The position numbers and the translations under genes are program-made. DNA of 64,000 bases from Polyangium mundeleinium. GTDB taxonomy: Bacteria; Myxococcota_A; Polyangia; Polyangiales; Polyangiaceae. Positions 3,489 to 17,680 of the stretch are shown piece by piece. The stretch lies in the NCBI RefSeq assembly GCF_028369105.1, contig NZ_JAQNDO010000001.1:11998501-12062500 (forward strand). Direction: 5' to 3'. The first letter of the stretch is position 1. Every line of letters begins with the position of its first letter. The notes beneath the pieces were generated by a model. That model did not search any database. It was not told where the DNA came from and worked only from the letters and a program-made list of their open reading frames with translations.

Positions 3489-4184
3489 CTACGCGGTCGC
3501 GGCGTATCCGCGCCGACGCACGACGCTGAGCAGAATACGGCCGATCTCCACGATCTGCTCGAAGCGGCGGGGAGGCCATTCCACGTGCGGGAAGGGCTCC
3601 TTGCCCCAGAACGGGGACGGACGCGGCGGCGAGGCGTCCCCGGGCGCGGCGGAAGCTTCGGCCGTGCCGGCGCCGAGGCGCGGCGCGAGGTGATTCGTGA
3701 GGGCCTCGCCGATGACGTTGCTGAGGTCCCGATCGTGCTGAATGCAATGGATCGTAAGGCGCTCGGCGAGCTCCGGCGTCAGGTAAATCGTGACGGGGCG
3801 GAGCGGCACGCCGCCCACGACCGTCGGCTCGGGCAGCGGCGAAGGCGCAGCAGGCGCGGGCGCGGCGACGGGCTCGGCAGGCGCGGCCGCGGCCGCGGCA
3901 GGCGCTTCGGCGCGGGCCTCGACGGCGACGACGGCGCTCTCCGGGACGGGCGTGACGCTCTCCGGGACGGGCGTGGCGTCGGCCTCGGTCCCCGCTTGGG
4001 GGCTCCGCTCGGACGAGCCGAGCTGCGCCCCCAAACCCCCACGCTCCGCTTTCGCCGGGGCGCGGCGCGCGCGCTTCGGGGCCGCGGCTGCGGCGGCGGG
4101 CGGCTCGTCTCCGCTGACGAATGCGTCGATCGATTCAGGCGACGGCGGCTTGCGGAGCGAAACCGCGACTTGCTTCTTGGCCAT
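3489..4184 (-). CDS. Ribbon-helix-helix-like partner of ParA (putative centromere/DNA-binding protein)
   Basis: This 231-aa protein is encoded immediately after the parA-like gene and overlaps its end by 50 bp, so the two are probably translationally linked. The N-terminus is basic (MAKKQVAVSLRKPP). Residues ~28-125 are an Ala/Pro-rich flexible linker. Residues 129-170 (PVTIYLTPELAERLTIHC and DLSNVIGEALTNHLAP) have the beta-strand plus two-helix pattern of ribbon-helix-helix DNA-binding domains such as ParG/MetJ-Arc types. The tail (residues ~200-228) is another short basic amphipathic region. Its Shine-Dalgarno is GAGG, eight bases before ATG. In plasmid partition loci of the ParF/ParG class the second gene is such an RHH protein. 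That role is inferred here mainly from synteny, and the linker is unusually long. Confidence 0.6.
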   Translation of the reverse strand: MAKKQVAVSLRKPPSPESIDAFVSGDEPPAAAAAAPKRARRAPAKAERGGLGAQLGSSERSPQAGTEADATPVPESVTPVPESAVVAVEARAEAPAAAAAAPAEPVAAPAPAAPSPLPEPTVVGGVPLRPVTIYLTPELAERLTIHCIQHDRDLSNVIGEALTNHLAPRLGAGTAEASAAPGDASPPRPSPFWGKEPFPHVEWPPRRFEQIVEIGRILLSVVRRRGYAATA

Positions 4185-4818
4185 GGTGAAACCTCGTGAG
4201 CTCGTCGAGCAATTGGTGAATCTCTTTCGCGGAGGCGTCGCGCGGGGCGTACGTGGTCACGCCCTTCCCCACGGCGATCGCCTCCTGGTACGCCACACGA
4301 AACCCGAGCTCGGTGCCGAGGACCGGCAGGCCCGAGGTCTCGAGCGCGGTGCGCGCGCTCTTGGCGAGCGCCGTGCGGCCTTGCTTGCGCGTGATGAGCA
4401 CGCAGCCGGCGAGTTTGTCCCGCAGCGCGCGCGCCTCCTGGAACACCTCGATCGCGGCCGTGAGCGCCCAGGCGTCGGCCGCGGTCGGGCCGCAGGGGAA
4501 GACGGCGACGTCCGCGACCATGAGCGCCGATCGGGTGATCTCTCCGTGGCGCGGCGGGCAGTCGATGATCGTGAGGTCGTACGCGAGCGAGACGCTGTCG
4601 AGCTGCCCGGGGCGATGCATCTGCGCGCCCATGGCCACGATCGTCGGCGCCTTGTGCCCCGCCTCGTTCGCGACCTCGCCCCACGTGCGCACCGTGCCCT
4701 GTGGATCGGCGTCCACGAGGAGCACGCGCTGCCCCTGCGCGAGCGCCGCCACGGCGAGGCTCACGGCTGTCGTGCTCTTGCCGATCCCACCCTTCTGTCC
4801 GGTGAGCGCGATGATCAT
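4135..4818 (-). CDS. ParA/MinD-family P-loop ATPase (partition-type)
   Basis: This 227-aa protein opens with the deviant Walker A motif KGGIGKST (residues 9-16), including the signature Lys of ParA/MinD/Soj proteins. LLVDADPQGT (residues 33-42) and DLTIIDCPPRHGEIT provide the switch and Walker B regions. The length equals that of short ParA proteins without an N-terminal HTH (ParF/Soj-like), which position DNA or protein cargo by ATP-driven dynamics. The Shine-Dalgarno is a G-rich AGGGGGG before ATG. It lies first in a two-gene unit with the RHH-like protein. No chromosomal parB (HTH-type) or parS-like palindrome was recognised nearby. This may be an orphan or mobile-element-derived partition cassette rather than the main chromosomal par locus. 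Confidence 0.85.
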   Translation of the reverse strand: MIIALTGQKGGIGKSTTAVSLAVAALAQGQRVLLVDADPQGTVRTWGEVANEAGHKAPTIVAMGAQMHRPGQLDSVSLAYDLTIIDCPPRHGEITRSALMVADVAVFPCGPTAADAWALTAAIEVFQEARALRDKLAGCVLITRKQGRTALAKSARTALETSGLPVLGTELGFRVAYQEAIAVGKGVTTYAPRDASAKEIHQLLDELTRFHHGQEASRGFAPQAAVA

Positions 4819-5260: not shown

Positions 5261-5953
5261 ATGCGGGTTTGTCGACGTCTGGCCTTGGGCGTAGGAGGAG
5301 CCGTATTTCTCGGGGCCCTGGCTTCCTCCGCCGCGAACGCAACCCCCGGCGCGCCCACCAGACCGCCCACGCCACCGGACCCATCCTCATCCTCATCCTC
5401 ATCCTCCCCGCGCGGCCTCAAGTCGTTCTCCGTCGCCGCTGGCCCGCTCGCCCAGATCGGCGGGCCCGTCCCCAGCCTCTATCACGCGGGGGGCATGGTG
5501 AACCTGAGCATCCGGAGCCCGATGTGGCTGTGGGACCTCGGCACGACGTTCGCCCTGGCCGTGGTCCCCGAGGAGCGCTTCCTCGCGCCGATGCGCGGAT
5601 ACGACGTCTCCCTCTTCGCGCACGTCGGCGTCCGCCCCTGGGCGTTTTTCGGGGTCTTTGCCGGCGCTCGGCTCGGCGACTGGTACGGCTGGAACAAGAC
5701 CCCAAGTGGCCCCCTGGAGTCCAAGGGGTCGAGCGGGGCGGCGCTCCTCGGCGCCGAGTTTTCCTGGCGGTTTGCGCAAAGGCTCTCCTTTCGGGTTCTC
5801 GCCGAAGGTGGGTACACCTTCGCCAAACCCACGCTCCGCGTGGACGCGAGGTTCGACCAGAGATGGGGCCCGCCGTTTCCTGTGTTCGGCGTCCTCTCGA
5901 TGCAGATCATTTACGACATCATGCAATACGAAACGAAGGAACCGTTGGAATGA
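5261..5953 (+). CDS. Secreted or outer-membrane-associated hypothetical protein with poly-Ser linker
   Basis: This 230-aa protein has an N-terminal signal peptide (MRVCRRLALGVGGAVFLGALASSAANA). A Pro/Ser linker containing eight consecutive Ser follows (about residues 41-50). The remainder alternates amphipathic strands rich in Gly, aromatic and charged residues (for example WLWDLGTTFALAVVP, AFFGVFAGARLGDWYGW, LSFRVLAEGGYTF). That pattern resembles a small outer-membrane beta-barrel. Its stop overlaps the start of the next gene in an ATGA, so the two are probably co-translated. No family was recognised, and the barrel idea is inference from strand pattern only. Confidence 0.65.
   Translation: MRVCRRLALGVGGAVFLGALASSAANATPGAPTRPPTPPDPSSSSSSSSPRGLKSFSVAAGPLAQIGGPVPSLYHAGGMVNLSIRSPMWLWDLGTTFALAVVPEERFLAPMRGYDVSLFAHVGVRPWAFFGVFAGARLGDWYGWNKTPSGPLESKGSSGAALLGAEFSWRFAQRLSFRVLAEGGYTFAKPTLRVDARFDQRWGPPFPVFGVLSMQIIYDIMQYETKEPLE
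5382..5406 (+). repeat. Hexanucleotide microsatellite (CATCCT)x4 encoding poly-Ser
   Basis: Four perfect tandem CATCCT units plus one base lie inside the coding region of the preceding secreted protein and encode alternating TCC/TCA serines. Because the unit is six bases, copy-number change would lengthen or shorten the Ser linker without changing frame. Confidence 0.85.
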
Positions 5954-7047
5954 AGCAATTACGCTTTGCGCTCGTTTTGCTCTCGATGTCGACGTTCGTC
6001 CTCGGCTGCGAGGTGGAAACCGAGGACGTGGTTTACTCCTGCGACAACCCGGACATCGGCCACTTCGATTCCAAGGGAAACCCCGACCCGTGCCATCTGG
6101 AGGAGAAAGGGAAGCCGCAGTCCATTTGCATGGGAGGCTGCGAGGAGATTTCCCTGGCGTTCGAGCGGACGATCGTCGCCTTGTGGGTGGGCCCCGAGGG
6201 CAAGGAGCCGGCGTGCCCGAAGCAGGCGCCCAAGGCGGTCTTTAATGGGTATGCCGGGCTCACGGCGCCCCCGATGTGCGCCCCGTGCCGATGCTCCGAG
6301 CCCTCGTGCGTCTTGCCTTCGGTGCGCGCGACGGCGGGGGACGCGTGCGGCGGGAGTGTCGTCGGCGCGGTCGAGCCGCCGCCGTCGTGGGAAGGCGGGT
6401 GCCTCGCGGGGCCGTCGCTCGGGCCTGGGACGTTCAGCTCGGTGCACATCGGCGCCGTGGGCACGGCGGGCTGCGAGGTCATTGAGGATCCCCTGCCGGT
6501 ACCGCAGTTTGCGAGTGCATGGCCGGCCCAGTGGGCGGTGGCCGCGCGGGCTTGTGCTGCGGAAGAAGAGGAGAGCCCGCCCGCGTGTGCAGGGGCCGCA
6601 TGCGTGCGTGGGATCGAGAAGCTTCCGGCCGGGTTTCAGCGCTGCCTTCGTTACCCCGAGGGGACGGAGGAGAGCGAGACGCAGGTGTGTCCGGCGGAGT
6701 TTCCGGAGCGGCATGTGTTTTATGCAGGCCTCTCGGATACACGCGAATGCACCGCGTGCTCGTGTGCACCGCCGGCCGACGGGATCTGCATTGCGTCGGT
6801 GAGCGCGTTCCAGGACGCGAGCTGCGGCGGTGCGCCCATGCCTATCTTTCAGAACGCGGCCGTTGGCCTGAACGCCTCCGCCTGTTACGACACGTCCATG
6901 CCGCTCTCCCTCGGCTCGATCTCCGCGGGGTGGTTGGCGGAGGAGCCGGGGTCGTGCGTGGTGGCGGGCGGCGAGGCGATTGGGGAGGCGGTGCCCAGGG
7001 ATCCAAGCGTCTTCTGCTGCGAGCCGCTCGTGGTTGCGGCGGAGTAG
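5950..7047 (+). CDS. Cys-rich lipoprotein, coupled to the upstream secreted protein
   Basis: The ATG at 5950 overlaps the previous TGA by four bases (ATGA). The 365-aa product begins with a short signal peptide ending in the lipobox FVLGC. The mature part contains many Cys residues in small clusters (CMGGC, CAPCRCSEPSC, CTACSC, FCC), suggesting a disulfide-stabilised extracytoplasmic protein. The spacing of the CxCxxxxC clusters resembles that in many myxobacterial lipoproteins of unknown role. No enzymatic motif is visible. Co-translation with the barrel-like protein upstream suggests the two act together at the cell envelope. Confidence 0.75.
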   Translation: MKQLRFALVLLSMSTFVLGCEVETEDVVYSCDNPDIGHFDSKGNPDPCHLEEKGKPQSICMGGCEEISLAFERTIVALWVGPEGKEPACPKQAPKAVFNGYAGLTAPPMCAPCRCSEPSCVLPSVRATAGDACGGSVVGAVEPPPSWEGGCLAGPSLGPGTFSSVHIGAVGTAGCEVIEDPLPVPQFASAWPAQWAVAARACAAEEEESPPACAGAACVRGIEKLPAGFQRCLRYPEGTEESETQVCPAEFPERHVFYAGLSDTRECTACSCAPPADGICIASVSAFQDASCGGAPMPIFQNAAVGLNASACYDTSMPLSLGSISAGWLAEEPGSCVVAGGEAIGEAVPRDPSVFCCEPLVVAAE

Positions 7048-7464
7048 ACCTCGGGGAGGAGGTCCAACGACCTCCGACCAGAGGTCCAACGACCTCCGAC
7101 CAGAGGTCCAACGACCTCCGACCAGAGGTCCAACGACCTCCAACCAGAGGTCGGCGACCTCCAACCAGAGGTCCAACAACCTCCGACCAGAGGTCGGCGA
7201 CCCCTTACTCGAGATCGGCGACCTCGTACGAGAGGTCCAAGGACCACGTTCTGAAGGTCGGCGACTTCCTTCTCAAGGTCGGCGACCTCCTACGCAAAGT
7301 CGGCGACCTCCTACGCAAAGTCGGCGACCTCCTACGCAAGGTCGACGACTTCCTACGCAAAGTCGGCGACCTCCTACGCAAAGTCGGCGACCTCCTACGC
7401 AAGGTCGGCGACCTCCTACGCAAGGTCGGCAACCTCCTTCTCAAGGTCGGCGACCTCGTCGAAG
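7047..7464. repeat. Degenerate tandem array, about 19 units of 21-22 bp with internal inverted repeats
   Basis: Anchor hexamers GAGGTC (later AAGGTC or AAAGTC) recur at 7059, 7081, 7103, 7125, 7147, 7168, 7190, 7211 and 7232. From 7254 they recur every 21 bp to 7443. The left part has a 22-bp unit alternating GAGGTC-CAAC-GACCTC-CGACCA. Each unit is therefore a hyphenated palindrome, spaced close to one helical turn. The right part has a 21-bp unit with the palindrome GGTCGGCGACC followed by TCCTACGCAA. There are no unique spacers between units, so it is not a CRISPR array. It begins in the stop codon of the lipoprotein gene and fills the whole 448-bp gap. It could form strong hairpins on either strand. 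Its function is unknown. Confidence 0.9.
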
Positions 7465-7495
7465 CGGAGTCGGTCCCTCCTCCGTAACAAGCCAC

Positions 7496-8053
7496 TCAAC
7501 CGCGGGCATTCACGCACTCGGATCGCCCGATGCGCTGCGAGTAGCTGCCTAGGCGTGGATCGGCGACCTCGCGGATCGCCCCGTCGGCGGCGACGAGATA
7601 GACGACGATGAGGCCGCGGCGGGCCATGCGGTCAGCCCCTTCGCGGCTTCCCATGCAACCGATGACGTTTCCCTCGGACGACGAGGCGACCAACGACCAG
7701 TCGACCTGCGTGTGCTCCGGGTTGGCACGGCGGAACTCCGCGAGCGCCAACGAGCCTGCGCGGCGCGCCGCGTCGAACTCCTCGACGGTGAGCCGCGGAA
7801 TCCTGCGGTGCCGAGCAAAGAACGAGAGCTTGAAGCCCGCCAGGGGAGCCGCCAGAGCGGCCAGCACCGCGGCGAGGACTCCGTTTGCCCCGAAGTGCTT
7901 CGCCGCGAAGAAGGTTCCGACGGCCGCGCCGCCGGCGATCAGCGCATCGACCCATGCGATCCACGCAGGGTTCGGTGGAACGTCGACGAAGACGCTGTCC
8001 GGATCATCGGCGAATTCACCAAGCTTGCCCCGCGACATCGGCTCAGACTGCAT
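7496..8053 (-). CDS. Hypothetical membrane protein with two hydrophobic segments
   Basis: The frame could begin at 8158, 8053 or 8038. The ATG at 8053 (MQSEPMSRGKLGEF) is preferred because the upstream extension is low-complexity Arg/Pro sequence, but no start has a strong ribosome site. The ~185-aa protein has two adjacent hydrophobic segments (AWIAWVDALIAGGAAVGTFF and GVLAAVLAALAAPLAGF). A cytoplasmic-type C-terminal part of about 95 residues follows (EEFDAARRAGSLALAEFRR to the end). No family was recognised. It converges on the repeat array, which begins about 30 bp beyond its stop codon. Confidence 0.55.
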   Translation of the reverse strand: MQSEPMSRGKLGEFADDPDSVFVDVPPNPAWIAWVDALIAGGAAVGTFFAAKHFGANGVLAAVLAALAAPLAGFKLSFFARHRRIPRLTVEEFDAARRAGSLALAEFRRANPEHTQVDWSLVASSSEGNVIGCMGSREGADRMARRGLIVVYLVAADGAIREVADPRLGSYSQRIGRSECVNARG

Positions 8054-8190: not shown

Positions 8191-9895
8191 ATGCCCCCCT
8201 CGACCCGTCCGCCCGAAGTCCGGAAACGCGCCCTCGCGCTCCTCGTCGCGGCGCTGCTCTCGTTCCTGGCGAAGCCGGCCGAGGCCGCGCAGATGCTCCA
8301 CCAGGACCTGGCCTCGCTCGCGTTCGAGAGCGAGGCCATCGTCCTCGCGCGGCGAGGGCCGGAGCAGCGGCGCGCGACCGGGGAGACCGTTATCGAGCAC
8401 CACGTCCTGGAGTCGTACACGGGCCCGCTTCGCCCGGGTGATCGCGTGGAGGTGTCGTACGACGGCCACGTCCTCGAACCGTCGTGGGGGTGGCCACGCC
8501 CCGCTCCGGGTGCGACCGCGGGTGTCGTCTCGGGACGAGGTGGTCCTCTTCCTCCAGCCTACCGACAGCGACGCGGCCGGCGCGCCGCCCTGGGAGCTGT
8601 CGGGCCTGCGCATCTTCCGGGACGGCCAGGCCTACCGCTTCGAGCAGCACATGAACCCCGGCCTCTCCGAGCCCGTCCCGCAGCGCGCGGATCCGTTCGA
8701 CATCATGGGGGATCCTCGCGCCGGCGCGCCGCTCGATCAGGACGGCCTGCGCCGCGCGATCGACGCCGCTGTCGCGCGGGCCCGAGCCGCCCGCGAGGCG
8801 ATCGCGGCGCGGGCCACCCCCGAGGGCCGGCGCAAGCTCGTGGAGCTCATCGGCCCGCCCGCGGACGACGACGACGCTCCCGTGCCCCTCGGCCACGTCT
8901 CCTCCTGGGACGATCGCATTGCGACGAAGGCCATTGAAGCGCTCGCGAGCACGGGGGATCTCGACGCGCTCCTCGACGGCGTCGCGCGCCGGGTCGGAGG
9001 CGTCTCCTTGCCCATGATCCCCGAAAGCGTGTCCGGTCCGAGCCTCCTCGCGGCCGCCGCTTCGCCCGCCGTGCCACTCCACCGCCGCCTCGCCGCCCTC
9101 ACGCTGCTGGAGATCGGCAGGTTCCCTCTGTCGAGCAAGCTCGATCCATCGCGCAAGCACGCGCCCCAGCTCGCCTCGCTCTACGACGATCCGGAGCCCG
9201 AGGTGCGCGCCGCCGCGCTCGACCTGCGCTTCAGCGCGCAGGAGCCGCCCCCGCCCGTCGCGGCGGCCCTCCTGGCCCGCTGGGGTCGCGAGACCGACGC
9301 GCACGTGCAGTGGAGCCTCCTGGAGAGCGCCGAGCATTTCGCCCTGCGCGAGAAGCTCCTCGGCAGCCACGACGTGATCGAGCCCATCGTATGGGCGAGG
9401 CGCCGCCGCCGCGTCGTCGACATCTTCCTGACGAGCACCCGTGAGCGCCGCCCTCACGTCTCCCGCGTCGTCATCACGGCGCGCGCCGGCGACCACGCCG
9501 CGGGCACGCTCGACCTGATGCCGGAGATGCTCTCGGGATCGATGAGCGGCCGCACCGAGATCGACCACGCGTTCCTCGCGTTCACGCCTCCGCTCGCCCC
9601 GGGCCATTATGCGCTCGACCTGCGCGTGGACATCGAGGACGACAAGAAGCAAAGCCTCTCCCGCCGCTTCACGCTGCCCGCCCTCCGCGTGGGCGGCGCG
9701 GGAGCGGCCACACCGCCGCCCGTGCCGCCGCGACGGTCGTGCGCGTGCGCGTCTCCGGGCTGCACGAGCGAGGCGGAGGAGGTCGAGGCGATTGTGCTGC
9801 TGTGCGTGGGTGTCGCCGTGGCGAGACGGCGGCGGGGGGCCGGGCGGCGCGACGACGGATCTACCGGCGGCGTGGCTCCGCGGGGCGGGCGGTAG
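8191..9895 (+). pseudogene. Secreted HEAT-like protein gene with an apparent frameshift near 8490
   Basis: Translation from ATG 8191 gives a signal peptide (KRALALLVAALLSFLAKPAEA) and continues sensibly to HVLEPSWGW. It then becomes Pro/Ala nonsense. In the +1 frame from the same place a convincing protein continues (VSSRDEVVLFLQPTDSDAAG) to 9895. Removing one G from the GGGGG run at about 8487-8491 joins both halves into a protein of about 567 aa. The middle part has helical pairs resembling HEAT repeats (DDRIATKAIEALASTGDLDA, LYDDPEPEVRAAALDLRFS). The end has Cys residues, a short hydrophobic stretch (AIVLLCVGVAV) and an Arg cluster (ARRRRGAGRR). This could be a true pseudogene, a phase-variable tract or a sequencing error. 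Confidence 0.65.
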
Positions 9896-9922
9896 CTCCG
9901 GGGCCAACATTTCTTGACGCAA

Positions 9923-9955
9923 TCAGGACGCGGGCCGCGCCGTGGACGCAGGCCC
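9923..9955. repeat. Left copy of 33-bp direct repeat (putative attL)
   Basis: This copy matches 15120-15152 at 30 of 33 positions, with a perfect 20-bp core GGCCGCGCCGTGGACGCAGG at 9933-9952. On the minus strand it reads as the last codons of the ten-TM protein gene further right (PASTARPAS then stop, against PASTARPVS then stop). It therefore looks like a displaced copy of that gene's 3' end. Confidence 0.75.
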
Positions 9956-9998
9956 GGCCGTGGCGCGGGTGCATGCGACCTCTTGAAAGCCCCGGCAG

Positions 9999-10508
9999 AT
10001 GAATTCGTCGCCGCGTAACAAGACGGTGGTCGCAGGCGAGAACACCGCGGCGAAGGAAAGGTCCGAGGCAGCAGCCGCCCCCGAATCGCTCGACGAGCTT
10101 TACCGTGAAGCACGCGCCGTCGCATCGGCCTATAGCCCCCCTGAAGCTGCTCGATACCCTGAAGAGGCAGTCACCGATACCAACAAAATCACGGCGATCG
10201 AGAACCTGCCCGACGCTATCGACGACCACGTGGGGACGGCCTGGGCCAATGACCTCCTCGGCGGCGAATTCGGCAAGCTCGCCCCGCAGGCCATCCAAGA
10301 TGGTGAACCCGTCACGGCGAACAAGGCGCTCGGGAACGCGAACCAGGCGCGCGCGGCAGCCTACGGCCCCGCCTACGAGAAGTATCTGTCGTTCAAGCAC
10401 GTGGTGCGCGAGGTGCACCGTCCGGCGTCGAGGAGTATAAGCGGATTCACCTGCGCGCGAGCGCCGGTGCGGAGTGAGGAAGCGGCATCTCCTTACGAGG
10501 AGGGCTAA
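9999..10508 (+). CDS. Hypothetical protein, first ORF of the putative island
   Basis: This 169-aa ORF begins MNSSPRNKTVV, 43 bp inside the left repeat. It is acidic and helical over residues ~25-135 (SLDELYREARAVASAYSPP, AWANDLLGGEFGKLAPQAIQ, YEKYLSFKHVVREVH). No family was recognised. The last ~30 residues look unnatural. Another frame from 10427 (VEEYKRIHLRASAGAE then stop at about 10481) reads as a better continuation of the helix, so a frameshift near 10415-10427 is possible. The ribosome site is weak. It is followed by a hairpin and then by the ATPase gene, so it may be a separate unit. Confidence that it is a gene at all is moderate. Confidence 0.45.
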   Translation: MNSSPRNKTVVAGENTAAKERSEAAAAPESLDELYREARAVASAYSPPEAARYPEEAVTDTNKITAIENLPDAIDDHVGTAWANDLLGGEFGKLAPQAIQDGEPVTANKALGNANQARAAAYGPAYEKYLSFKHVVREVHRPASRSISGFTCARAPVRSEEAASPYEEG

Positions 10509-10519
10509 CTTGCACAGGA

Positions 10520-10566
10520 GGGCGCCCCGGTTCTGCGAAGACCCCGGCGCCCCTTGCGTCAGTTTT
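10520..10566 (+). terminator. Possible hairpin terminator between the small ORF and the ATPase gene
   Basis: GGGCGCC at 10520-10526 can pair with GGCGCCC at 10546-10552. A short T-rich tail (TTTTG at 10563-10567) follows about ten bases later. The gap between stem and T tract makes it a weak candidate. Confidence 0.3.
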
Positions 10567-10625
10567 GTAGACTTCCAAGGGGGCTCCCGGCTAGGCTCGG
10601 CGCGGCCGGTGCATGACGACCGTGC

Positions 10626-11804
10626 ATGGCTCCATCGGAAAGTTCGTCCGTGACCCCCTTCGCACGCTACTTCAAGCTCAAGGATGCCGAGCGAACCGAC
10701 TTTCGGTTGAGCACGAAGCTGCCCGAGCACCTGCGGCTTTACGTCGATCTGGACGGATCCCTCCCAAAAGTCGAGCAGGCCCTCCGCGTCGAAACCCCCC
10801 TCCTCGTCGTAGAGGGGGATTTTGGAACGGGAAAGAGCCACCTCCTGCGTTACGTCGAGCACGTCCTCCTCGGCCCTGACAGCCCGCTGGTTCGTTTCGA
10901 ACCTGTCTACGTAGCGCTTTCCGGCTTTCATCGACGCTCGAACTTCCTGTCGGTCCACCAGCAGATCGCCCCGGAGTTCATCAAGAAAGCCACCGCAGCG
11001 ATGCAGGCGCCGGGAAAGGAGAGGGAAAAGCGGCTGGATGGGATCCACGGCATTACGGAGAACATGCGCCTCGCGTTACGGGATCTCGGACTCCCGGGCG
11101 TGGGGACAGCGCATCCCGGCGCCACGACCGCCAAGCAATGGCTGATGGCGAGCAGCAAGCTTTCGGGTCCCGCCATGGCCAAGGCGAAGTTCACATGCAC
11201 ACTCTTCGAGGAAGCAGGACCGACGCAAATCGTGGAGCTTTACAAGGCCATCAGTGACCTCCATCGGAGTGTCTTCGGCAAGAAGCTCCTGCTCCTCCTG
11301 GACGAGGCGGAGACTTTCAGCAACGTCGTGGATATCGACGCGCAAGCCAGCATCGGCAGTGGGATGCGCACCCTGTTCGACAGCGAGAATCAGAGCTTGG
11401 GTTTCTTCCTCGGCCTGAATACACCGCGGGTGCGCGGCGGCATCCATCCATTGCTCCGAAGTGACGTACAGAGTCGAATCGGAAACCGGCAGCTCCGCTT
11501 GAAGCCGCTCGGCACCGCGGAAGACCGCAGCCAGTTCATGGAGCGGCTTTGGCCCGGCTTGACGAGCGACGCCAACAGCCTGCCATTCCTGCTCGAACGA
11601 GCGGCCTTCGACCTTGTCGCGCATCGCCTGGAAGACCTCTACCGCAGGCTGGTCCGGGACGAAGAGCAGCTCTTCGCTACGTCGAGCCCCCGAGACCTCC
11701 TCCACGTGCTCTCGGACATCGGACTGAACGCCGTCGAGAAGGGCGTCGAACCTCCGATCCGGGCGGACATGATCCGGCGCTGGTACGCCATGACGAAGGG
11801 CTAG
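10626..11804 (+). CDS. AAA/ORC-like P-loop ATPase of an unrecognised two-gene system
   Basis: This 392-aa protein has a Walker A motif GDFGTGKSH (K70) and Walker B LLLLLDEAETF (D226, E227). Between them an Asn/Ser-containing loop region (VYVALSGFHRRSNF) follows a short extended N-terminus (TPFARYFKLKDAERTDF). The DEAE Walker B and the later GMRTLFDSENQSLGFFLGLN and RQLRLKPLG segments resemble STAND/ORC-like ATPases found in bacterial defence loci such as BREX-associated ATPases. I could not match it to a named family. ATG 10626 lacks a good ribosome site; GTG 10650 (before TPFARYF) with GGAAAG upstream is an alternative start. The stop codon lies one base before the next ATG, so the two genes form one tight operon. 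Codon use is less GC-biased than flanking genes. Confidence 0.75.
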   Translation: MAPSESSSVTPFARYFKLKDAERTDFRLSTKLPEHLRLYVDLDGSLPKVEQALRVETPLLVVEGDFGTGKSHLLRYVEHVLLGPDSPLVRFEPVYVALSGFHRRSNFLSVHQQIAPEFIKKATAAMQAPGKEREKRLDGIHGITENMRLALRDLGLPGVGTAHPGATTAKQWLMASSKLSGPAMAKAKFTCTLFEEAGPTQIVELYKAISDLHRSVFGKKLLLLLDEAETFSNVVDIDAQASIGSGMRTLFDSENQSLGFFLGLNTPRVRGGIHPLLRSDVQSRIGNRQLRLKPLGTAEDRSQFMERLWPGLTSDANSLPFLLERAAFDLVAHRLEDLYRRLVRDEEQLFATSSPRDLLHVLSDIGLNAVEKGVEPPIRADMIRRWYAMTKG

Positions 11805-11805
11805 C

Positions 11806-14800
11806 ATGCGTTTTTTGCGGCAAACGTCGCCCGATCAAATTCGACTGGGATGGCTGCGGCTCATTGCTGGCATCGTCGGCACGGAGCGCCTACCTCTCGA
11901 CTCCCTCCGGGCATCGATCCTGTCTCTCCAGGGCAACTTCGAGCCATGGATCGACGAAGCTGGCTTCTCCGTGTCCCCCCGAGGAAACGTACCACCCAGC
12001 CGTATCGATCGTCTCGCGGCGATGGGCGTCAACTTCGGTATCTATGACACGACGACCGAGACGCTCACGGAAATAGGCCATGTCCTGCGCGCGGTAGCTC
12101 CATGGTCGCCCGATGACGGCAATCCGCTCGTATGGCGAGGAGCCTCGCGCTGGATTGCCTTCTACATCGTCGTACAAGCTGCGGGTGACGTCGTCCTGCC
12201 ACTCCTTTCGGGGTGGCCCACAGAGGAACAAACCACAGCTGAGGTTGCGGAGAGGCTCTCGGAGGTGCTGGATACGCTCGCCCGAAAAGCCCGTGAGGAC
12301 CGGAGCGTCCTTCGGAAACAGGCAGAGGGCGCTTCGCCGCAACAGAAAAGTTTCAAGGCACATACGGTCCTTTACCCGTACGTGGAGCTTTTACGCGACC
12401 TTGGATACCTTGAGCGAACGACGGTGGTGGGGGGAGGGGCCGGGTACCGTTTGACCGAAGCAGGTTCGCGGCTACGAAGCGAGCGACAGCGCTTCGAGGG
12501 GGACACCGAGGCCCTGCTCCGAAGCGGGATTTCTCGCGTCTTTCTTCGGGGCGAGGGGGTCGAACTCTTGCGGCCTTCGACGGGTCGGGAATTCGCCAAT
12601 ACACTTGCGACGATTCCTAAGGAACTGACCGTCCTCCGCCGCGAGGAAGTCCTACTGGATGCGGCGGTTCTCCTAGCTCAAGCGAAGTTCCTCGACGAGG
12701 CGCCTGGGGCCTGGATCGATCGTCAGCGCGCGCATGCTCTCCTCAACGCTGCGGCGCATAGGGGCATCAGCATCGCCGTAAAACGAGGCGGCTCCGTGAA
12801 AGACCTCAATGTCGCATGGGAGAGCGCGGCGGTCCTGGCTGAGGAGCGCGGATGGGACGTCGATGTACCAGTGGACGAGCCCGTCGCGCACAAGGCGGAA
12901 TCCGCCGCTCCGACGCGGATAGACTCGACTGCAGAAGTTCTGGCGCCCATAGGCTCGACGAAAGAGGCTTCCTCGGAAACCGGAACGACCAATGAACGCG
13001 AGACGGAACCATCCGTGATTCCCACCGAACCTCCGAAGCAAGAAGTTTCGGATCCGGATGCCTTACTGCGCACCGCTGTCCCCGTTCATCAAAGGCTCTG
13101 GCTGCATTACGTCGACCAACTCCTCTCTCCCCCCCAGAGAGGTGCGCTCGATGTCGTACGCTGGGGTGGACTCGTCATGGCGATGGCGCGTCTCGACGGG
13201 CTGCTCATGGATCTCCCCGAGCACCGGCTAAGAGAGAAGCGTGCCCTGCGCCACGACGAAATCCTCCATCCCCAAGCGCAGAAGCCGAGTACAAATCCTT
13301 ATTGCCTTCATCCCCTCGCGCGCCTAGAGCCCATGCTGCGGGCCATCGAAGAGGATTGGGTCGTCCAGCGCATCCAGCAAACGTGGCTGGATGACGGTTC
13401 GCGTGATCCGCGCCCCGTGCTGGAAAGAGGACGAAGATATGCGGCGACCGTCGCGGACAAGCTACGAACCGATATCGATGCGTTTCTCGATCTGCCGCCT
13501 GAAAACACATCATTCTGGAAGCGGTGGGACACAGCACGCGAAGCCACGAGGAGCATCATCCATGACGCGATCGCGGCGGGGATCGGGAGCGCTCGAAGCT
13601 TACGCGAACGCCTGCACAGGGAATTGCGACGACAGCGGCCCCGAGACGCGGCGAGCGCCTTCCTGAACGTGCTCTTCGCGAAACCGTGGTCGGCTCGCTA
13701 TACCCAGCATCGGCGACTACCGCTCGACGTCGTGACGCAGCTCGAACTCGATAAGGCCAACGCCTCCGCATCGGATGACATCGAGATACGTATAGGCCCA
13801 ATTGCGTCCGAAGATGGTACGCATATCGTCGAGTTCATCCTTCAGACGCAAGCTCGCTCCAATTTCGAGGCTCGACAGATGGGGCGACAACGGGTGCATG
13901 CGCTCCTCAGCGAGCGCTTCGCACGTCGTGTGATGCCTGAGCCAGACGTAACGATAGATTTGCACGAGCGTGTGGCCTACGAGCACGTCGAGTCCATTGA
14001 GGCGCACTCGATGGAGCATGCCGACCGCGAGGAGCCCCTGGACGCCGATCGCAGCTTCCCCGGTCTTGCCCCCTACCGACGCGATTCCTCGGCCCCTGCG
14101 TTGCGGGCAAACCCATCGAGAGGCACGGAAACCTCGGTTCCGCGTCAGCGGATTCTGCGAGCCCGCCGTGAGATTCTGGACACGCGTCGCCCGGGATTGA
14201 ATGGTGAACAACGCACCATGCTCGCCTGGATGGCGATGGAGCGCCTAGTCGCCACAGGCTTGCAGAGTAAGGTCGAAACGATCCCGTGCCTGGCAGCGCC
14301 CGCGGCGCTCCTCCACCTTAAGGGTACGTTCACTCGGATCCTTCACGACGCGCGAGCGGGTCTCTGGCTTTCAGCGTGCATGGAGCCTCAGAACGAACCT
14401 TTGGCACGGCTCGTTGCGCAATGGTTACCCGATCTGTCCGAGGAACAACGAGCGGTGCTCGACCCGGAGGCCGTCCCATCCATGCGCCGAAAGAGGGTGA
14501 TGGACCGAATTCCTGCGCTGGGCGAGGAAAGCTCGTTGCGGTGGCTCTGGGAGCAACGCAGGACGCTCCTCGAGTTCAAAGATGTGCTCACCGTCTGGGC
14601 CCCCTTCGCGGCCGCCGGTTTGCACGATTATCTTGTCATTACAGGGGAAGAGAAGGACACCAAGCGCGAGAGTGTCGGGAACGGAACTAAGCTCGCTGAT
14701 TACTTCCGCCAGCTCTACGAGGACATCGCATCATTCTTCGCCCACGTCTATGAGACTCGCAACCGTGCAGCGCACGGCGGAGAGACGCTCGAAAGAGACC

Positions 14801-15006
14801 ATGCTGCCATAGAGTTGTATCAGCGCTTCATAGCCCTGACGGAGCCGGTCCTCGACGCAGCTGAGCGCTGGGTTGATCGTGGTCTCACGCTCGAACAAGT
14901 CTTCGGGCTCGCGCTCGACAAAGCTTCCGATCTGGCCGGACTCCCTCACAGCAAGCCTGGGCGGAAACTCGACCTTGGCCGCCTCGACGAGCTCCTAGCC
15001 TTCTGA
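11806..15006 (+). CDS. Large putative effector: winged-helix-like N-terminal region, C-terminal HEPN-like domain
   Basis: This 1066-aa protein is not recognised as a whole. Residues ~1-100 and 183-225 (HTVLYPYVELLRDLGYLERT, GYRLTEAGSRL) have the pattern of winged-helix domains. Residues ~350-425 are a Glu/Thr/Pro linker. Residues ~450-900 are mostly helical and Arg-rich (LRERLHRELRRQRPRDAASA). The C-terminal ~200 residues contain SFFAHVYETRNRAAHGG. R985-x4-H990 matches the Rx4-6H motif of HEPN ribonuclease domains, inside long helices before and after, as in Apea-like HEPN proteins. HEPN proteins commonly act as RNases in abortive-infection or toxin systems; that role is inferred here. It follows the ATPase gene by one base. 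Base composition differs from surrounding genes. Confidence 0.7.
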   Translation: MRFLRQTSPDQIRLGWLRLIAGIVGTERLPLDSLRASILSLQGNFEPWIDEAGFSVSPRGNVPPSRIDRLAAMGVNFGIYDTTTETLTEIGHVLRAVAPWSPDDGNPLVWRGASRWIAFYIVVQAAGDVVLPLLSGWPTEEQTTAEVAERLSEVLDTLARKAREDRSVLRKQAEGASPQQKSFKAHTVLYPYVELLRDLGYLERTTVVGGGAGYRLTEAGSRLRSERQRFEGDTEALLRSGISRVFLRGEGVELLRPSTGREFANTLATIPKELTVLRREEVLLDAAVLLAQAKFLDEAPGAWIDRQRAHALLNAAAHRGISIAVKRGGSVKDLNVAWESAAVLAEERGWDVDVPVDEPVAHKAESAAPTRIDSTAEVLAPIGSTKEASSETGTTNERETEPSVIPTEPPKQEVSDPDALLRTAVPVHQRLWLHYVDQLLSPPQRGALDVVRWGGLVMAMARLDGLLMDLPEHRLREKRALRHDEILHPQAQKPSTNPYCLHPLARLEPMLRAIEEDWVVQRIQQTWLDDGSRDPRPVLERGRRYAATVADKLRTDIDAFLDLPPENTSFWKRWDTAREATRSIIHDAIAAGIGSARSLRERLHRELRRQRPRDAASAFLNVLFAKPWSARYTQHRRLPLDVVTQLELDKANASASDDIEIRIGPIASEDGTHIVEFILQTQARSNFEARQMGRQRVHALLSERFARRVMPEPDVTIDLHERVAYEHVESIEAHSMEHADREEPLDADRSFPGLAPYRRDSSAPALRANPSRGTETSVPRQRILRARREILDTRRPGLNGEQRTMLAWMAMERLVATGLQSKVETIPCLAAPAALLHLKGTFTRILHDARAGLWLSACMEPQNEPLARLVAQWLPDLSEEQRAVLDPEAVPSMRRKRVMDRIPALGEESSLRWLWEQRRTLLEFKDVLTVWAPFAAAGLHDYLVITGEEKDTKRESVGNGTKLADYFRQLYEDIASFFAHVYETRNRAAHGGETLERDHAAIELYQRFIALTEPVLDAAERWVDRGLTLEQVFGLALDKASDLAGLPHSKPGRKLDLGRLDELLAF

Positions 15007-15119: not shown

Positions 15120-15152
15120 TCAGGACACAGGCCGCGCCGTGGACGCAGGTCC
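15120..15152. repeat. Right copy of 33-bp direct repeat (putative attR)
   Basis: This copy matches the left one (9923-9955) at 30 of 33 positions and shares the perfect 20-bp core at 15130-15149. It forms the final codons and stop of the minus-strand ten-TM protein gene, which it leaves intact. Confidence 0.75.
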
Positions 15153-16252: not shown

Positions 16253-17680
16253 ATGTCGCGTGAGCTGGCGAAGGAATCGAGCCTCGCGCCCCTCGCGCTG
16301 CGTCTCGATCCGCGCGCGTTCGTCGGGTTCACGCTGGCGATCGTCGCGGCCTTCGTGACGCACCGCGGCTGGCTCGGCGGGCCGCTCGGGCTCACGCGGC
16401 CCGCAGAGATCACGCTCGGGATCGTCGCGGTCGCGGCCACGCTCTGGCTCACCGAGGCCGTGCCGCTCTTCGTCACGAGCCTCGTCATCCTCACGCTCGA
16501 GCTCGTCTGGCTCTCGCCCGCCCTCGACCCCGCGCACCACGGCCCGACGCTCTTCCTGAACGCGTTCTTCTCGGACGTGACGCTCCTCTTCCTCGGCGGC
16601 TTCGTGCTCAGCGTCGCCATCGAGCGCACCCAGCTCGACCGGCGCATCTCGCGCGCGCTCCTCCGCCGCGCGGGCACGTCCCCGCAACGCGTGCTGCTCG
16701 CCATGATGATCGCGACGAGCGTGATCGGCGTGTGGATGAGCAACACGGCCGCGTGCGCGTTGATGCTCGGCCCGGCGGCGTCGATGCTCGCGCGGGTCCC
16801 GCCGGGGGACGGGTTCCGCAAGGCGCTCCTGCTCGGCATCGCGTTCTCGGCGAACCTCGGCGGCCTCGCCACGCCGATCAGCTCGCCGCCCAACGCGATC
16901 GTGATCCGGTACCTCGGCGCCGAGGCGCCAAGCTTCGCGGTGTGGATGGCGCTCGCCGTGCCGCTGCAGGTGGTGCTTCAGCTCCTCTTGCTCGTTTACC
17001 TCGGGCGTCGTTACCCGAGCGGCGTGAAGGCGATCACGCTCGACGACGAGGCGCCACGTCCGTTCGGACGGCCGCAGGCGCTCGTGCTCGGCGTGTTCGT
17101 GTTGACGGTGGCAGGCTGGATCTTCGGCGGCGCGCTCTCGATCACCTCGGGCACGGTCGCGCTCCTGCCGGTCGTGGTCTTCTTCGGCACGGACCTCCTG
17201 CGCGCGCCGGACCTGCGCGCCCTGCCGTGGGACGTGATCCTCCTCATCGGCGGCGGGCTCGCGCTCGGCGCGGCCGTCGAGCAATCGGGGCTCGCCGCGT
17301 GGGCGACACAAAAGCTCCCGACCGCGGGGCTGCCACCCTTCGTCGTGATGGGCGTCGTGGCGGTCTTCGCGGTGGTGGTCTCGTCGGTCATGAGCAACAC
17401 GGCCGCGGTCAACCTGCTCGCGCCCGTGGTGATCGGGCTCGAAGGCGTGCCCTCCGCGCCCCTGCTGCTCGTCGCGGCGTTCGCGTGCACGCTCTCGATG
17501 CCGCTGCCGGTGAGCACGCCGCCGAACGCGATGGCGTACGGGTTCAGCGTGGATCCCTCCGGGCGGGGCGAGTTCACGGCGCGGGACATGATCGTCCCGG
17601 GTACGTTCCTCACGATCGTCGGCCTCGGGGTGCTGGCCGCGTTCACGAAGCTCTGGTTTCCGCGGTTTCTGGCGTTTTAG
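16253..17680 (+). CDS. DASS/SLC13 family divalent anion:sodium symporter
   Basis: This 475-aa inner-membrane protein carries both Ser-Asn-Thr signature loops of the DASS family (MSNTAAC at residues 162-168 and MSNTAAV near 388). Each is paired with a re-entrant Pro motif (TPISSPPNA near 207-215 and PVSTPPNAMAYG near the end). The family moves dicarboxylates, citrate, sulfate or phosphate, usually with sodium. Which of these applies cannot be decided. The start MSRELAKESS is chosen over an upstream in-frame ATG because the extension is Arg/Gly-rich noise. The stop overlaps the stop of the convergent kinase gene by two bases (TTAG). Confidence 0.85.
   Translation: MSRELAKESSLAPLALRLDPRAFVGFTLAIVAAFVTHRGWLGGPLGLTRPAEITLGIVAVAATLWLTEAVPLFVTSLVILTLELVWLSPALDPAHHGPTLFLNAFFSDVTLLFLGGFVLSVAIERTQLDRRISRALLRRAGTSPQRVLLAMMIATSVIGVWMSNTAACALMLGPAASMLARVPPGDGFRKALLLGIAFSANLGGLATPISSPPNAIVIRYLGAEAPSFAVWMALAVPLQVVLQLLLLVYLGRRYPSGVKAITLDDEAPRPFGRPQALVLGVFVLTVAGWIFGGALSITSGTVALLPVVVFFGTDLLRAPDLRALPWDVILLIGGGLALGAAVEQSGLAAWATQKLPTAGLPPFVVMGVVAVFAVVVSSVMSNTAAVNLLAPVVIGLEGVPSAPLLLVAAFACTLSMPLPVSTPPNAMAYGFSVDPSGRGEFTARDMIVPGTFLTIVGLGVLAAFTKLWFPRFLAF

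Follow-up and report, generated by a model that had tools for sequence, protein, structure and literature searches.

REP and BIME elements, of which the REPs are repetitive extragenic palindromes, occur in enterobacteria and pseudomonads, and REPs avoid divergent promoters. Plasmid iterons and parS/parC centromere arrays present their tandem sites on the same side of the DNA at intervals of about two helical turns, and eukaryotic satellites and higher-order repeats consist of units which are homogenized at each locus and which come in multiples of a basic unit. BIMEs have been described as extragenic repeats with regular spacing and alternating orientation (PMC2817692), and the roles hypothesized for REPs and BIMEs include supercoiling, termination, and mRNA stabilization (PMC3733652).

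The array analyzed here lies in the 13.25-Mb genome of Polyangium mundeleinium (G000). The window, i.e., the whole stretch of 64,000 nucleotides under analysis, comprises the positions 11,998,501–12,062,500 of this genome. The array and its relatives are similar to the BIMEs of E. coli in their place and in their dyad layout and are not members of them. We suggest, with a confidence somewhat short of an even chance, that they are phased double-stranded DNA elements at gene ends which would bind protein and could, in a BIME-like way, act on topology or as boundaries.

The array in the window and its neighbor genes

The preliminary description of this locus had counted 19 units of 21/22 bp. The array was confirmed by the three approaches named in Table 1, and the unit search gave the same count. 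The first half-site occupies the positions 7047–7052 and the last one 7452–7457. Tandem Repeats Finder (TRF) reports periods of 22, 21, and 43, the rows together covering 7059–7457. In the unit search the steps are 22, 22, 22, 22, 21, 22, 21, 21, and 22 bp followed by nine steps of 21 bp. The mean step is 21.33 bp or 10.67 bp per turn, and the claim of about two helical turns per unit was thus correct. Within 7047–7464, exact GAGGTC and GACCTC hexamers are found 22 times as compared to a mean of 1.21 and a maximum of 4 in 200 first-order Markov shuffles; likewise the top TRF score is 344 as compared to at most 62 in 200 such shuffles.

Table 1. Features of the window around the array (positions in the window)
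Feature	Position	Strand	Remarks
Chromosomal ParA and small partner gene	3489–4818		
Lipoprotein-like gene, named by eye	5950–7047	+	TAG stop at 7045–7047 shares its G with the first half-site
Dyad half-site array GAGGTC/GACCTC, 19 units of 21/22 bp	7047–7457	.	Direct reading, TRF, unit search
Left sub-array, mostly 22-bp units	7059–7204	.	GAGGTCCAACGACCTCCGACCA; inverted half-sites 4 bp apart
Right sub-array, mostly 21-bp units	7211–7457	.	RRGTCGGCGACCTCCTACGCA; inverted half-sites 3 bp apart
Convergent downstream gene	7496–8053	−	ORF to 8158; remnant in G148; not beside the array in G151

GAGGTC and GACCTC had been said to alternate. In terms of exact hexamers the alternation is strict up to position 7173; to the right of it the left arm is frequently AAGTC or AAGGTC, and from 7238 onward GACCTC is the only exact hexamer. 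The units have the form GAGGTC-N4-GACCTC (22 bp) in the left part and mostly RRGTC-GGC-GACCTC (21 bp) in the right part. Thus, the unit length tracks the inner spacer, which is 4 bp in the 22-bp units and mostly 3 bp in the 21-bp units.

According to our gene-calling script, the array fills the gap between the lipoprotein-like gene on the plus strand and a convergent gene on the minus strand, which is reached 38 bp after the array end. Searches of Pfam and NCBIfam with the lipoprotein-like gene gave no match. A coding heptad repeat (21 bp corresponding to the 7 codons of LRKVGDL) was considered and rejected, as the frame is broken by the 22-bp units and as a stop codon precedes the array in three species. 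For the same shift of frame by the 22-bp units, the combination of a period divisible by 3 and an open frame, which would mark a coding minisatellite, is not present. No plasmid or phage relative of the array was found at E 0.001 in a plasmid and a phage collection. To the right of the array, the stretch 8438–15006 precedes the gene at 15120 and codes for an ATPase with a weak match to BrxD (PADLOC, 6.8e-06; NCBIfam, 22.5 bits at a cut-off of 350) and for a protein of 1066 amino acids without a PADLOC or NCBIfam match. Its absence next to the array in the Polyangium genome G148 would fit a variable island with a possible role in defense.

On its other side the array is near a ParA gene, whose product matches the NCBIfam model NF041546 (ParA_partition) with 188.2 bits at a cut-off of 180. 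The product of the partner gene (3489–4184) has no match in Pfam or NCBIfam and would, judged from its sequence, be an RHH protein. A centromere-like role of the array for this ParA/RHH pair had been named as worth testing, and the good match of ParA to the partition model argues for it, as does the distance of about 4 kb or less between the partner gene and the array in G000, G148, and G151. The same linkage is seen in G149 by model matches only (C33:80059–80239, ∼3.5 kb from the partner gene). However, the pair is present in all six Polyangium genomes, with ParA being 92–98% identical in the other five, and an array beside it was found in four. In G150 and G152 the neighborhood of the pair yielded none, which is a soft absence since 150 of ∼29,000 candidates were scored per genome; at this depth the contig carrying the pair has no model match in G152, and G150 has one weak match ∼45 kb away. 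Furthermore, the same half-sites form arrays at several other places in the genome, and phased arrays of differing sequence outnumber those with the same half-sites. The linkage in four genomes fits what simple synteny would give, and we regard a centromere function of the array as very improbable.

Phased arrays across the genome

GAGGTC/GACCTC arrays with a spacing of 21–22 bp and with other spacers are found elsewhere in the genome, for example near the positions 1,694,400, 4,253,300, 6,792,400, 6,807,500, 6,838,400, 6,852,800, 11,092,100, and 12,113,100. A genome-wide search for the same unit had been named as a check in the preliminary description; the exact palindrome RRGTCGNCGACYTC gives, besides its own array and one near 12,113,000, mostly isolated single matches, which are uninformative. 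When the strict pattern GAGGTC-N3-5-GACCTC-N4-7-GAGGTC was searched in 183 genomes of the order, 25 of them had any match. More than two matches were found in three Polyangium genomes only (25 in G000, 20 in G148, and 18 in G151; 0, 0, and 1 with the reversed control pattern), the others having at most two, and with a looser pattern arrays of this type were also seen in G152. A model of the family (R1) matched 108 of 177 genomes at E 0.001, including many other genera; most of these matches are weak and were not counted as arrays.

For 16 GAGGTC arrays (10 from G000 and 3 each from G148 and G151, leaving out L097, L100–L102, L107, L108, L111, L113–L115, and L120), a unit search with the inner spacer fixed at 3 or 4 bp and the outer spacer left free yielded 177 units. 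All 161 steps between them are 21, 22, 42, 43, 63, 64, 65, or 105 bp. The consensus of 54 three-unit pieces of these 16 arrays is GAGGTCnnCGACCTCCTCCnG, in which the agreement of the half-sites is partly circular as the pieces were chosen by half-site match. Among the arrays left out, L097 (10020–10541) is 522 bp long, has periods of 21, 127, and 148 among others, and is located between divergent called genes; by eye its half-sites GGAGGTC are direct and not inverted.

The phasing extends to arrays of other sequence. From the chromosome, 60 stretches of 20 kb, comprising 1,192,500 bases without N, were sampled and searched with TRF and with script gene calls, which are crude; the stretches lay 165 kb apart up to the position 6.6 Mb and unevenly wider apart beyond it, several places were skipped, and the content was never a criterion. 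An array was considered as phase-locked when its best period was within 1.5 bp of n × 21.4, and arrays with a best period below 15 were excluded from the count. The sample contains 21 intergenic arrays that are 120 bp or longer, and 20 of them are locked, their periods being 21 (twice), 22, 42 (twice), 43 (six times), 65, 85 (twice), 86 (twice), 129 (three times), and 194, the last one (L157) with just 2.1 copies. The sole unlocked array has a period of 191 with a sub-period of 64 bp. Taken over all 21 arrays, the two-turn unit is 21.40 bp on average (sd 0.25), i.e., 10.70 bp per turn.

The sample also provided controls: within called genes 5 of 34 arrays of this length are locked, as are 2 of 9 intergenic arrays of 60–119 bp and, with earlier gene calls, 3 of 21 intergenic arrays below 120 bp. 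At the earlier gene-call threshold the long intergenic arrays gave 20 of 23 (binomial P 2e-14 with a null of 0.146 for uniform periods), a set which included two Gly-rich arrays (18 and 54 bp) and in which arrays of the same family are not independent. In 14 of these 23 arrays the best period is not divisible by 3, and 13 of the 14 are locked; thus, coding does not explain the lock. The helical phasing noticed at the original locus is therefore supported far past this locus. Slippage, which had been offered as one possible origin of the array, accounts for the homogeneity of the copies. It does not account for the lock to 21.4 bp, since arrays in genes and short intergenic arrays of the same genome are mostly off the multiples of this length and the long intergenic arrays are on them.

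The contrast between locked arrays and controls is clean in G000 and less so in other genomes, for which the samples are small. Long intergenic arrays are locked in 3 of 3 cases in G149, G150, and G152 together, in 2 of 3 in G070, which is another genus of the same family, and in 1 of 3 in G164. The respective numbers are 3/6, 3/7, and 1/10 for short intergenic arrays and 0/4, 4/8, and 1/6 for long arrays in called genes. Extrapolation from 21 arrays in 1.2 Mb gives a total of roughly 230 such arrays in the genome of P. mundeleinium if the density holds. A count of lags between intergenic 7-mers, with an excess at 43, 86, 129, 172, and 215, was discarded in favor of the TRF-based survey, as coding sequence overlooked by the gene calls contributed multiples of 3 and as runs of N in L157 and L161 raised the counts.

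Throughout the class the units are homogenized at each locus and the letters vary among loci. By eye, several half-site families recur: besides GAGGTC/GACCTC these are TTTGGGG/CCCCAAA (L149, L171, and L186), GTGTTCGAACGTTCG (L169 and L172), and sequences like GGAGGTACGAGG (L155, L158, and L176). The most enriched trinucleotide is GAC/GTC, which is above background in 17 of 20 arrays, and TAA, ATA, and AAT are the most depleted ones in these 20 arrays. In 19 arrays of the 43-bp type (13 from the sample and 6 added by hand from G148, G149, G152, and G070) an extra similarity above 0.01 was found, among the lags 5–41, at 21 (+0.04) and 22 (+0.03) only, as if the 43-bp unit consisted of two diverged 21.5-bp units; this sub-signal is weak. 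Two arrays are near-perfect and by their look recently expanded, namely L163 6672–7066 (43 bp × 9.2 at 99%) and L154 14201–14536 (21 bp × 16 at 96%), the latter being 7 and 12 bp away from the called genes on either side.

The arrays are not evenly distributed over the types of gaps between genes. Considering gaps of at least 150 bp, an array is present in 6 of 31 convergent, 9 of 139 tandem, and 2 of 97 divergent gaps. Thus, albeit with small counts, convergent gaps are enriched (6/31 compared to 11/236 for all others, P 0.007) and divergent gaps are depleted (P 0.036).

Orthologous arrays and the level of action

The lipoprotein-like protein of P. mundeleinium is 92% identical to those of G148 and G151 over the first 192 residues and 82% overall. 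In both genomes the array also starts directly at the stop codon of this gene, with the same arrangement of stop codon and first half-site, and the unit search recognized 15 units in G148 and 18 in G151. To the right, G148 has the remnant of the convergent gene followed by the gene of window position 15120, and G151 has the gene of window position 17677. As the right neighbors differ, the array belongs with the 3′ end of the upstream gene and has persisted as adjacent DNA came and went. Every step in the three orthologous arrays is 21 or 22 bp, so that no unit is skipped; copy number and unit order vary among them.

The mean column similarities of left arm, right arm, and 6-bp spacer are 0.71, 0.94, and 0.49 between G000 and G151, 0.81, 0.94, and 0.63 between G000 and G148, and 0.67, 1.00, and 0.36 between G148 and G151. 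For comparison, the DNA identity of the lipoprotein-like gene between G000 and G151 is 0.86, and 0.79 at third codon positions. Thus, the right half-site is conserved above the gene, the left half-site is not, and the spacer is the least conserved part. The drift of the left arm can be seen from AAGTC in G000 and ATGGTC in G151.

Orthology is not confined to this locus. In six of nine stretches from G148 and G151 (L114–L118 and L120 of L113–L121) and in L127, the array flanks align with array-bearing stretches of G000. The aligned flanks enclose or adjoin the array in L115, L116 (one side only), L117, L118, L120, and L127. Among the G000 stretches compared, L113, L119, and L121 have no counterpart. 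The stretch L124 (G149:C53) carries the orthologue of the gene following the array in the window; within 3.6 kb there is no long array, TRF reports only a 29-bp triplet run, and by eye a transposase-like sequence seems to lie ahead of that gene.

Such arrays could also be neutral bacterial satellites without function, built by slippage and unequal exchange, with the period being set by helix-tied mutation or by a few seeds. This would account for units that are homogenized within a locus and different between loci and species, for the variable copy number and unit order of orthologues, and for the drift of the left half-site, and the sharing of family sequences between loci (L169/L172, L149/L171/L186, and L155/L158/L176, by eye) points in the same direction. 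On the other hand, short intergenic arrays and arrays in genes are mostly not locked in P. mundeleinium, although in other genomes 3 of 6 and 3 of 7 short intergenic arrays are. Also the conservation of the right half-site above that of the spacers and of the neighboring gene, and the avoidance of divergent, i.e., promoter-containing, gaps argue for a function, the latter being explicable by a simple promoter constraint, too. We consider neutrality rather unlikely but a serious rival.

A further possibility is an action at the level of RNA. The preliminary description had mentioned a transcript hairpin ladder; the array would be transcribed as a 3′ untranslated region and the ladder would terminate transcription or guard the mRNA end, in both directions. 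In three species the array sets in at the stop codon of one and the same gene, and this agrees with such a role, as does the enrichment of convergent gaps. In addition, both strands fold more strongly than register-preserving permutations: for the 50 arrays of phased period in a set of 58, which was manually supplemented with arrays of other stretches and genomes, the mean z of the folding energy is −2.9 and −2.5 on the two strands, with 80% and 74% of the arrays below −1. The dyads seen in this way speak for a phased DNA element, too. Against it, the phased arrays L154, L163, L195, and L115 have no dyad signal (z near 0).

Against an RNA role, changes in the two arms are mostly one-sided. In the 177 units, 831 arm pairs are unchanged and 231 are changed, of which 226 are changed on one side (186 unpaired and 40 G-T) and 5 on both sides (3 of them pairing); a reservation is that the unit filter passes no more than 3 changes over the two arms of a unit. 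When the right arms were redealt within each locus, 7.3 two-sided changes resulted as compared to the 5 observed, and 875.1 (sd 2.4) of 1062 cells were paired as compared to the observed 874. As one-sided changes dominate and redealt arms pair equally well, the stems are not visibly kept by compensation, and the covariation gives no support to the hairpin ladder. Within 6900–7650 there is no terminator-like site (G+C-rich hairpin and T run), and a comparison with the Rfam models, up to E 0.1, gave no match. Moreover, RNA hairpins do not need a phase of 10.7 bp, yet the periods of 43, 65, 86, and 129 bp are kept. In our view an RNA element is rather unlikely, to the same degree as a neutral satellite, and likewise a serious rival. 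The register of 10.7 bp is a property of double-stranded DNA, from which we infer an action at the DNA level; this suggests that the arrays act as double-stranded DNA and neither as protein code nor as ordinary RNA.

Proposed role and comparison with known systems

How could a phased DNA element at gene ends work? The array is one member of a class that is spread over the genome and occurs in other Polyangium, too, with a unit of 21.4 bp, i.e., two turns of B-DNA, or a whole multiple of it. Each locus has its own homogenized unit, with families of loci sharing half-sites, here GAGGTC...GACCTC. Selection would act on the double-stranded DNA such that half-sites recur along one face of the helix, and one or more DNA-binding proteins, or the additive bending of phased DNA, could build a regular structure between genes, which would sit mostly behind 3′ ends. 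Its most likely job would be that of a topological or transcriptional boundary between adjacent transcription units. The array in the window is probably bound by a putative protein on one helix face. A single protein with a single motif cannot serve all arrays, as the sequence families differ.

A more far-reaching version, which we consider possible but rather doubtful, is that the ∼200 satellite-like intergenic arrays (extrapolated) follow the helical register, 10.7 bp per turn in two-turn units, as their sole common rule. They would be read as a three-dimensional DNA structure, either by protein filaments on one face or through bending that adds up along the array, and would label the ends of genes as topological boundaries. 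To our knowledge, a sequence-diverse, phase-coded boundary element of this kind is known from no bacterium, and in our searches of the literature no account of such arrays came up. If the long intergenic arrays keep whole helical turns while their letters change, the phase itself would be the selected trait. The arrays would then offer a route to study the insulation of neighboring genes or supercoiling in very large bacterial genomes and might allow the helical repeat of G+C-rich chromosomal DNA to be estimated in vivo, here as 10.70 bp per turn.

When compared to known systems, the Polyangium arrays share with REP and BIME elements that they are extragenic and rare in divergent gaps. In contrast to these elements, they have no single REP consensus, only half-sites being common within the GAGGTC family, and their period is locked to 21.4 bp. 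The Y1/RAYT transposase TnpA-REP (PF01797) has no match in G000 and any match in three of the six Polyangium genomes. Since no Y1 transposase was found in the genome and since there is no one consensus, the Polyangium arrays are not BIMEs.

With iterons and parS/parC arrays they have in common that the sites are about two turns apart on one face of the DNA. They differ from these by their presence at many loci per genome, by their inverted half-sites, and by an inconstant linkage to ParA; in addition, in a general look at the genes beside the array in the window, no replication gene was recognized. Finally, the Polyangium arrays resemble eukaryotic satellites in that their units are homogenized at each locus and come in multiples (21.4, 43, 86, and 129), whereas they are short (∼0.1–0.6 kb), intergenic, and scattered over a bacterial chromosome.
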